Shown here: positions 5,982 through 50,317 of the stretch, one piece after another
How positions within the stretch are numbered: the stretch's first letter is position 1
Layout: the number at the start of each line of letters is the position of its first letter
Program-made: the position numbers and the translations under genes
The notes under the pieces: generated by a model
Database searches by the model: none
What the model was told of the DNA's origin: nothing
What the model saw: the letters and a program-made list of their open reading frames with translations, nothing else
Source of the DNA: Rhodospirillales bacterium
GTDB lineage: Bacteria > Pseudomonadota > Alphaproteobacteria > UBA8366 > JADFVY01
Direction: 5' to 3'
Length of the DNA: 63,411 nucleotides
NCBI GenBank assembly: GCA_020356105.1
Contig: CP070634.1
Location: 3,133,802 to 3,197,212, forward strand

Positions 5982-6123
5982 CTCAACGGGATTCGCGTCG
6001 GAATTGCGAAATGAAATTGTTCCAAAAAAACCTCTATGCTATTGTTTCCCGTGCGCTTATATTAAGAAGGGTTCCGGCGTCGGTACGACGCCCCTGGCAA
6101 CACGAAGACGGATTCGAGAGTTG

Positions 6124-6549
6124 ATGAACAGCGCAGGCCGACGGTACGGCAGGGCATACGAGATCCTTCGAGAAGCGGGGCTGCGTCCGACGCGGCAGCG
6201 CCTCGGCCTTGCCCGGCTCCTTTTCGAGAACGGCGACCGGCACGTCACGGCCGAGCAGCTTCAGGCCGAATCGACGGCCGCGGATATGCGGGTGTCGCTG
6301 GCGACGATCTACAATACGCTCAACCAGTTCACGCAGATCGGCCTGTTGCGGGAGGTGGTCGTCGAGCCGGGCCGATCGTATTTCGACACCAACACCGCCG
6401 ACCATCACCATTTCTTCCACGAGGAAACGGCCAAATTGCAGGACATCGAGGGCGAGGCGATCGTCCTCGGCGCGGTTCCGGAGCCGCCCGAAGGCACCTC
6501 GGTGGAACGTATTGACATCATCGTCCGTGTGAAAAATGCTGTCAATTGA
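6124..6549 (+). CDS. irr: Iron response regulator Irr (Fur superfamily)
   Basis: A 141-residue DNA-binding regulator. The winged helix spans residues about 12-80 (LREAGLRPTRQRLGLARLLF, then VSLATIYNTLNQF as recognition helix). The HHH triplet at residues 94-96 (TADHHHFFHEE) is the haem-binding motif typical of Irr rather than Fur. In alphaproteobacteria Irr is stable under iron limitation, is degraded or inactivated by haem, and acts at ICE boxes on haem, iron-storage and Fe-S genes. I chose the ATG at 6124, which fits the family N terminus; the open frame extends upstream to 5974. It precedes rubrerythrin on the same strand; an ICE-like palindrome lies between them. A separate canonical Fur is encoded at about 50 kb. 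Confidence 0.92.
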   Translation: MNSAGRRYGRAYEILREAGLRPTRQRLGLARLLFENGDRHVTAEQLQAESTAADMRVSLATIYNTLNQFTQIGLLREVVVEPGRSYFDTNTADHHHFFHEETAKLQDIEGEAIVLGAVPEPPEGTSVERIDIIVRVKNAVN

Positions 6550-6580: not shown

Positions 6581-6629
6581 TTTAAAATCATTCTAAACTA
6601 TTGACAAGGCCTCCGCGTTCTGCTTTATA
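6581..6629 (+). promoter_or_regulatory. Irr-box-like palindrome and promoter for rubrerythrin
   Basis: Positions 6581-6597 (TTTAAAATCATTCTAAA) form a 17-base palindrome with a single mismatched pair, close to the iron control element pattern TTTAGAA-N3-TTCTAAA. It is followed by a perfect -35 TTGACA at 6601-6606 and, after 17 bases, TTTATA at 6624-6629, running into TATAGG. The palindrome lies immediately upstream of -35. Position and sequence suggest direct control by the adjacent irr product. Confidence 0.6.
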
Positions 6630-6721: not shown

Positions 6722-7141
6722 ATGTCGTTGAAAGGCAGCAAGACCGAACAGAACCTGAAGGACGCGTTTTCCGGTGAGAGCCAGGCGAACCGCCGCTATC
6801 TCTATTTCGCGCAGAAGGCCGACGTCGAGGGTTACAATGACGTCGCCGCCGTGTTCCGCTCGACCGCCGAGGGCGAGACCGGCCATGCGCACGGACATCT
6901 CGAATTTCTCGAGGAGACCGGCGATCCGGCGACCGGTGAGCCGATCGGCAGCACCGATTCCAACCTGAAGGCGGCGATCGCCGGCGAGACCCACGAATAC
7001 ACCGACATGTATCCGGGCATGGCCAAGACCGCGCGCGAAGAGGGCTTCGACGAGATCGCCGACTGGTTCGAGACCCTGGCGAAGGCCGAGAAGAGCCACG
7101 CCGGCCGGTTCCAGAAGGCGCTCGACACGCTCGGGTCCTGA
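6722..7141 (+). CDS. Rubrerythrin (rubredoxin-less)
   Basis: A 139-residue four-helix di-iron protein. Carboxylate/His ligands are visible in order: E19 ([10 protein letters not shown]), E52 and H55 ([10 protein letters not shown]), the [10 protein letters not shown] helix, and the last helix AEKSHAGRF. The usual C-terminal rubredoxin CX2C domain is absent, so electrons must come from another carrier. Rubrerythrins reduce hydrogen peroxide. A strong AGGAGG precedes the ATG at 6722; the open frame up to 6653 has no support. It sits behind an ICE-like palindrome and ahead of a GlpC-like Fe-S protein and a DUF3501 protein, a neighbourhood that recurs with rubrerythrin in proteobacteria. The Fe-S protein could be its electron donor (inference). 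Confidence 0.93.
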
Positions 7142-7169
7142 TCGGCCGCACCGACGGGCGGAGCGTTCC

Positions 7170-7195
7170 GGCGGAGGACCGTGCGGTCCTCCGCC
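7170..7195 (+). terminator. Strong hairpin after rubrerythrin (partial terminator or mRNA stabiliser)
   Basis: An 11-base-pair perfect stem (7170-7180 with 7185-7195) closes a four-base GTGC loop, 28 bases after the rubrerythrin stop. It lacks a T-run, so it may reduce rather than stop transcription into the downstream Fe-S gene, leaving rubrerythrin the most abundant product. Confidence 0.55.
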
Positions 7196-7324
7196 CGCTT
7201 GCCCCGATAGATCCGCTGTGGCCGCAACGCCACTGTCAGGCTTCCGGCCTTCGACCCCGACGCGCAGGACACGCCGTCGGGGTCGAACGCGGGAACAATC
7301 GATGAGCAAACAAGGATTGATGCG

Positions 7325-8668: not shown

Positions 8669-8686
8669 ACCTGGAGAATGACTGCA

Positions 8687-9292
8687 ATGGATACGGCGAC
8701 GATGACTCGCAAGACGGAGATCACCCGCGACGACATCATGGACATGGCGGAATACGGCGCGATCCGCAAGGAGCGCCGGCGCAGCATGATCGAGAAGAAA
8801 AAGCTGCGCCGCGTTGCGATCGGGCCCGATGCAACCGCGCATTTCGAGGATTATGACAGCATGTGGCTGCAGGTGCATGAGATGCTGTACATCGAAAAGG
8901 GCGGCGAGGAGCAGGTGGCCGACGAGCTGGCCGCCTATAACCCGCTGATCCCCAAGGGGCGGGAGCTCGTTTGCACGGTCCTGTTCGAGGTCGATGATCC
9001 CGAGCGCCGGGCCCGTTTCCTGGCCAATCTGGGCGGCATCGAGGAAACCATGTTCGTCCGGATCGACGGGGAGGAGATCATCGGCAGGGCGGAAGAGGAT
9101 ATCGACCGCACGACCGCCGCCGGAAAGGCGTCGGCGGTGCAGTTCGTGCGCTTCCCGTTCACCGATGCCCAAGTCGACGCCTTTCGTCGCAAGGGCGCCG
9201 AAATCGTCGTCGGCTTCAACCATCCCGGCTACGGCCATATGGTCAAACTGCCCGAGGAAACCCGGGAAGCGCTGGCCGCGGATTTCGACTGA
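8687..9292 (+). CDS. DUF3501 family protein
   Basis: A 201-residue acidic cytosolic protein matching DUF3501 (RDDIMDMAEYGAIRKERRR near the N terminus; YDSMWLQVHEMLYIEKGG; FNHPGYGHM near the C terminus). No catalytic motif or signal peptide is evident. Of three nearby ATGs I chose 8687, which lies 10 bases after GGAG; the ATG at 8678 is too close to it. It starts 18 bases after the Fe-S gene and is presumably in the same transcript as rubrerythrin. The His in MWLQVHEM and the HPGYGH stretch could bind metal. Biochemical function is not known. Confidence 0.85.
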   Translation: MDTATMTRKTEITRDDIMDMAEYGAIRKERRRSMIEKKKLRRVAIGPDATAHFEDYDSMWLQVHEMLYIEKGGEEQVADELAAYNPLIPKGRELVCTVLFEVDDPERRARFLANLGGIEETMFVRIDGEEIIGRAEEDIDRTTAAGKASAVQFVRFPFTDAQVDAFRRKGAEIVVGFNHPGYGHMVKLPEETREALAADFD

Positions 9293-49873: not shown

Positions 49874-50317
49874 TCAGCCGCCCTCGCCTTTGCGGCTCTT
49901 GTTGTCGGCGAGGCGCACGCCGTAAAGCTCGAGCCGGTGGTCGACCAGTTTGAAACCGAGCTGCCGCGCTACTTCTTCCTGCAGTTTTTCGATGTCCTCG
50001 TTCTGAAACTCGATCACCTCGCCCGACTCAATGTCGATCAGGTGGTCGTGATGGTCTTCCGCCACTTCTTCGTAGCGCGCGCGCCCGTCACCGAAATCGT
50101 GGCGCTCCAGAATGCTGGCTTCTTCGAACAAACGCACGGTTCGGTATACCGTGGCGATGCTGATCTTCGGATCGACCCTCGTCGCCCGGCGATATACGGC
50201 CTCGACGTCGGGATGGTCGTCCGACTCCGACAGCACCCGCGCAATCACGCGGCGCTGTTCGGTCATCTTGAGACCCTTTTTCTGGCAAAGCCGCTCGATG
50301 CGCGACAGCGCGCTCAA
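49874..50317 (-). CDS. fur: Ferric uptake regulator Fur
   Basis: A 147-residue metal-dependent repressor. The winged helix has GLKMTEQRRVIARVLSESDDHPDVEAVYRR and ISIATVYRTVRLFEEA; metal sites lie in RHDFGDGRARYEE and HHDHLIDIESGEVIEF. There is no CX2C zinc pair, typical of alphaproteobacterial Fur/Mur, which often responds to manganese. I place the start at a TTG at 50317, six bases after GGAG; the frame is open to 50341. Distinct from irr at 6.1 kb. Confidence 0.92.
   Translation of the reverse strand: MSALSRIERLCQKKGLKMTEQRRVIARVLSESDDHPDVEAVYRRATRVDPKISIATVYRTVRLFEEASILERHDFGDGRARYEEVAEDHHDHLIDIESGEVIEFQNEDIEKLQEEVARQLGFKLVDHRLELYGVRLADNKSRKGEGG

Follow-up and report, generated by a model that had tools for sequence, protein, structure and literature searches.

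A predicted Irr operator at the aerobic-type rubrerythrin operon of an alphaproteobacterium and a candidate variant in Gammaproteobacteria

Introduction

The window analyzed here, a 63,411-nucleotide stretch of the genome of a Rhodospirillales bacterium (contig CP070634.1), contains a gene for a Fur-family regulator immediately upstream of a rubrerythrin operon, with a 17-base palindrome lying between the two. This arrangement raises the question of whether the palindrome is an operator through which the iron response regulator Irr controls the rubrerythrin operon and, if it is, with what sign. Irr and the Irr box, also termed the iron control element (ICE), are well known. Irr has been described as confined to the Alphaproteobacteria with few exceptions and has been studied mostly in rhizobia and their relatives (PMC7762939). 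Its haem-free form binds DNA at low iron or haem and lets go when haem becomes available (PMC7762939; PMC4902296), and it activates or represses its targets depending on the position of the box (PMC7762939; PMC5587712).

The irr–rbr Locus

The regulator gene, irr (6124–6549, forward strand), encodes a protein of 141 amino acids that passes the cut-offs of two curated models, NF045678 (205.3 bits against a cut-off of 150) and NF045677 (181.8 bits against 170), which bears out the initial annotation in naming this neighbor Irr. In a tree of 88 proteins (a quick tree of a short protein), Irr and Irr-like proteins, 68 rows in all, separated from Fur with 99% SH-aLRT support, and the Irr of the window grouped with Irr proteins and away from Fur. 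It carries an HHH (HxH) motif at residues 94–96, a putative haem-binding site, and is devoid of cysteine, hence of the Cys-containing haem regulatory motif of the Bradyrhizobium type. This motif is not universal in Irr, and its absence is not decisive. Haem blocks DNA binding by Irr in the Rhizobium leguminosarum-type mode, while the Bradyrhizobium-type mode is one of degradation; because it contains no cysteine, the window's Irr is suggested to follow the former. The genome encodes two more Fur-family proteins, and the gene for one of them, located within the window at 49922–50281 on the minus strand, groups with ordinary Fur.

Downstream of irr on the forward strand lie rbr (6722–7141), encoding a 139-aa rubrerythrin (PF02915) without a rubredoxin domain, a gene for RFO, a GlpC-like protein recognized by its CCG domain and named in PMC5114695 (7325–8668), and a gene for a DUF3501 protein (8687–9292; PF12007, 199 bits), for which translation might also start at an in-frame ATG at 8678. 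Judged by its size and its gene context, namely a rubrerythrin domain lacking a rubredoxin domain and accompanied by DUF3501 and RFO, rbr is of the aerobic type as defined in PMC5114695. Both the gene set and the missing rubredoxin domain are shared with the RBR–DUF3501–RFO clusters of that study and with ferriperoxin (PMC3317640), a peroxidase needed for aerobic growth; Irr and regulation have zero occurrences in the paper on the clusters (PMC5114695). The intergenic region between rbr and RFO (7142–7324) folds far above its shuffles (z −5.2) into two long hairpins, which may separate expression of rbr from that of RFO and DUF3501.

The Predicted Operator and Its Promoter

The palindrome at 6581–6597 on the forward strand, TTTAAAATCATTCTAAA, has a central C flanked by eight base pairs, of which the sole mismatched one joins position 5 (A) to position 13 (C), and the letters and coordinates first reported for it, including the single mismatched pair, are exact. 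It differs at one base from the Irr box TTTAGAANNNTTCTAAA. The consensus TTTAGAA-N3-TTCTAAA, a 7-3-7 palindrome that we take to be that of the ICE, was re-derived here from relatives. A −35 element, TTGACA, follows at 6601–6606; the palindrome had been said to abut it, which is right as to proximity and slightly loose in wording, as CTA (6598–6600) stands between them. The probable −10 element, TTTATA (6624–6629), is separated from the −35 element by a 17-bp spacer and is identified from its sequence only, matching TATAAT at three of six positions. Because this −10 element is weak, the rbr promoter was missed by the automatic promoter scan and is absent from its output. RNA folding of the site gave no signal (z −0.9).

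When the 212-bp region was dinucleotide-shuffled 20,000 times, no match to the Irr box with at most one mismatch arose, and in the whole 3.86-Mb genome such a match occurs at only two places. The second of these (L001) falls in AT-rich sequence preceding a gene that resembles, by eye, a MucR/Ros-type regulator; the matrix drawn from other genera does not place it at E ≤ 10. With a 19-position model of 72 sites from other genomes, the genus of the window having been left out, 6581–6597 (together with its reverse-strand reading) was the only site in the genome at E ≤ 10, with an E-value of about 0.15. The initial annotation had proposed such scoring against genomic background, and the site stands clear of it. 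A simple matrix of 77 sites from other genomes, again without the window's genus, gave 34.1 bits, a score within the top range of those of other genera's sites, against 14.5 bits for the next best locus in the window, upstream of irr. As the sites in both models are orthologous rbr sites, these scores establish 6581–6597 as a conserved element rather than as a site bound by Irr. In sequence the element matches the ICE, or Irr box, and it stands above genomic background.

That runner-up locus (6009–6027, forward strand; AAATGAAATTGTTCCAAAA) is a weaker Irr-box-like site that was matched by 83 of 3000 shuffles. ICE-like sites of at least 14 bits were found upstream of irr in 31% of relatives, against 1.5% of shuffled sequences, and irr may thus be a candidate for autoregulation, which is taken here as a lead because the window's own site is weak.

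Conservation in Alphaproteobacteria

Among 52 rubrerythrin loci of the window's relatives with at least 80% identity, 48 combine irr next to rbr with a box of three or fewer mismatches. The layout is shared, for example, by the cultivable relatives Sneathiella and Pelagibius (L132 and L115). A phylum-wide search and a set of named genomes added further loci, bringing the sample to 97 loci with irr in the locus, a few of which come from records labeled as other groups and may reflect binning errors or transfers. A box with at most three mismatches precedes rbr in 91 of these 97 loci, compared with about 2% of shuffles, though the loci are mutually related and such counts are not independent events. 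Past the box, TTGA(C/T) begins after 2–6 bp in 85 of the 91 loci and after exactly 3 bp in 62. In four loci whose best matches are degenerate or displaced (L052, L067, L068, and L102), an ICE-like palindrome also precedes TTGAC by exactly 3 bp, as with CTTGGAACTGTTCCAAG at the expected place in L052. At box positions 7 and 11, 82 of the 91 sites have A and T, respectively, and further boxes occur in L119 and L147, one of them sitting between the −35 and −10 elements.

An AT-rich tract upstream of a −35 element is also where an UP element would be expected, and the site could in principle be such an element or a chance palindrome. The conserved positions are palindromic, however, and retain their G and C in many genera, and five positions are invariant in the 72 aligned sites; the shuffles never reached the match, and the box is absent from Irr-less genomes. 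Neither an UP element nor chance is given any but the slightest probability.

The distribution of the box follows the presence of Irr rather than gene adjacency. In four genomes in which irr is not adjacent to rbr (G178, G241, G243, and G059), the box upstream of rbr is kept. No box was found in two genomes in which no Irr was detected (G063 and G049), nor in three whose proteins reach Fur-level scores only (G177, G097, and G089). Where irr adjoins a more distant rubrerythrin, of 73% and 67% identity (L061 and L062), no Irr box was found. An independent ICE matrix from mbfA was not obtainable, as the 144 genomes contain five strong mbfA genes, too few for the purpose; two of these have a box with two mismatches at the start side, one has a box with three, and two have none.

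Another member of the Fur family, such as Fur or Mur, might be the protein that reads the palindrome, since two further Fur-family genes are present in the genome (including that at 49922–50281) and sphingomonad rbr operons that have no irr next to them (L162 and L164) carry a different, Fur-box-like sequence, TTGCGAATNATTCGCAA. Against this, genomes with ordinary Fur and without Irr have no such box, and the type of box changes with the clade of the regulator, which makes a different Fur-family protein a very improbable reader, if slightly less so than an UP element or chance is as an explanation. All three were rejected on the shuffles, the palindromic conservation, the absence of the box from Irr-less genomes, and the change of box type with regulator clade. 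Weaker palindromes resembling TTGCGAATNATTCGCAA were also seen in the sphingomonad loci L118, L130, and L165, and those of the L162/L164 type possibly represent a swap of regulator.

The proposal that the rubrerythrin operon is a likely direct target of Irr is thus supported at the level of sequence, and we place the probability that Irr directly controls the rbr operon through the predicted operator at 6581–6597 at about 0.93. Counting against Irr control is the behavior of the Rhodobacter sphaeroides protein, whose binding is weak and whose influence on its two targets is small (PMC3413700).

A Candidate Variant in Gammaproteobacteria

The same operon was followed in the class to which G261 belongs, taken as Gammaproteobacteria (274 genomes), with a threshold of E ≤ 1e−25 for Irr-like proteins. 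Such proteins are present in 111 of the 274, scoring 94–148 bits with one at 172, nearly all of them below the curated cut-off of 150. Aerobic-type rubrerythrin is encoded in 118 genomes, 85 of which also have an Irr-like protein (Fisher p 7e−21 for co-occurrence, uncorrected for kinship). A core of TTTAGA-N5-TCTAAA with no more than two mismatches lies upstream of rbr in 79 of the 85 genomes with an Irr-like protein, compared with 11 of the 33 without a detected one. A laxer search, run on ten of the eleven, returned Fur-level scores or nothing; some of these genomes are incomplete drafts, others more than 95% complete. Six genomes that are 96–99% complete (G622, G535, G402, G575, G613, and G647) have the palindrome upstream of rbr and only a Fur-level protein, which may reflect missed Irr-like genes, gaps in the drafts, or another regulator.

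The commonest form of the gammaproteobacterial palindrome upstream of rbr is TTTAGAC-N3-GTCTAAA; positions 7 and 11 are C/G in 43 of 90 sites, C/T in 14, and A/T in 14. The variant was seen in the rbr upstream regions of L139, L141, L142, L156, and L169 and in many of L240–L387, and no palindrome of this type occurs in the window's genome. Its placement also differs: the classical box of the Alphaproteobacteria lies upstream of the −35 element, whereas this one-base-shifted palindrome usually begins 36–42 bp (about 39 bp) after the start of TTGAC, downstream of the −10 element and near the expected start. It would accordingly lie at or just past the expected start of transcription, a position predicted for a repressor site.

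In the tree, the gammaproteobacterial Irr-like proteins fall into one clade (35 of 36 rows, 97% SH-aLRT), either nested in alphaproteobacterial Irr or adjacent to it. Their recognition helix has K in 33 of 36 proteins where alphaproteobacterial Irr has L (27) or Q (3), and mostly reads SKAT as against SLAT. It is tempting to link this residue to the base change in the operator; SKAT proteins also occur with the classical box, at TTTAGAATCATTCTAAA sites (G513 and G567), so that the link is only suggestive. We hold it at even odds that control of the aerobic-type rubrerythrin operon is a core task of Irr shared by the two classes, in which the half-site and the position of the operator, and possibly the sign of control, have changed.

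Proposed Mode of Control

In the mechanism that we propose, the haem-free dimer of the Irr encoded directly upstream would bind the box at 6581–6597 when iron or haem is low, placing the promoter of rbr–RFO–DUF3501 (TTGACA-N17-TTTATA) under its control. The products of these genes would probably reduce peroxide, using a di-iron protein and an Fe–S protein. With only 3 bp between the box and the −35 hexamer, a dimer bound there would, given a Fur-like footprint, cover part of the region read by sigma, and the operon would most likely be repressed until haem binds Irr and releases it.

Repression at low iron or haem is the sign that we consider the more probable, with moderate confidence. It is favored by the near-consensus −35 element, by the additional promoter boxes of L119 and L147, by the position of the palindrome downstream of the −10 element in the orthologous gammaproteobacterial operon, and by the repression of bfr and mbfA by Irr in B. 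japonicum (PMC4902296). An operator held at rigid spacing upstream of the −35 element equally fits an activator site, which counts against repression, and Irr might instead bind there to touch RNA polymerase and activate rbr at low iron. The 3-bp spacing, the weak −10 element of the window (three of six matches), and the published rule that box position sets the sign, with Irr often activating (PMC7762939; PMC5587712), all speak for activation, as does the rubrerythrin mRNA of Ca. Pelagibacter ubique, which rose 1.57-fold when iron was limiting (PMC2864753), provided that this gene shares the arrangement. On the other side, the −35 element is near consensus in most loci, the −10 elements match little worse than those of the gammaproteobacterial promoters, whose palindrome holds a repressor position, boxes inside the promoter (L119, L147) count against an activator, and ccpA of R. 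sphaeroides, whose start lies about 40 nt past its box, is slightly raised rather than lowered at low iron when irr is mutated (PMC3413700). Activation at low iron is therefore a possible reading to which we give distinctly less credence than to repression.

Relation to Known Irr Systems and Significance

The locus shares with the Irr/ICE regulons of Bradyrhizobium, Rhizobium, Brucella, and Rhodobacter an Irr-family protein above curated cut-offs and a 7-3-7 TTTAGAA-N3-TTCTAAA operator in the promoter region of a gene for an iron protein. It differs in its target, the rbr–RFO–DUF3501 operon rather than mbfA, bfr, or ccpA, and in an operator that lies upstream of the −35 element at fixed spacing. 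As 6581–6597 is the only strong site in the genome, Irr may act here mainly as a local regulator. There is a likeness also to the ccpA promoter of R. sphaeroides, where the distance from box to start is similar (about 40 nt) and the product is likewise a peroxide-removing iron enzyme, although a haem peroxidase (PMC3413700).

It is quite possible that rubrerythrin has been predicted before as an Irr target in Alphaproteobacteria. Outside that class, Irr-type regulators of the Fur family have been predicted in Acidithiobacilli, in a passage that ties them neither to rubrerythrin nor to a TTTAGAC-N3-GTCTAAA operator (PMC2631029). The pairing of the gammaproteobacterial operator with the Irr-like clade looks to be new, on condition that these proteins bind the operator.

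One conserved target ties Irr to peroxide defense across many genera, and the gammaproteobacterial pairing amounts to a concrete prediction, that of a protein clade together with its operator. If it is true, many proteins that fall below the curated cut-off for Irr would join a testable functional class.
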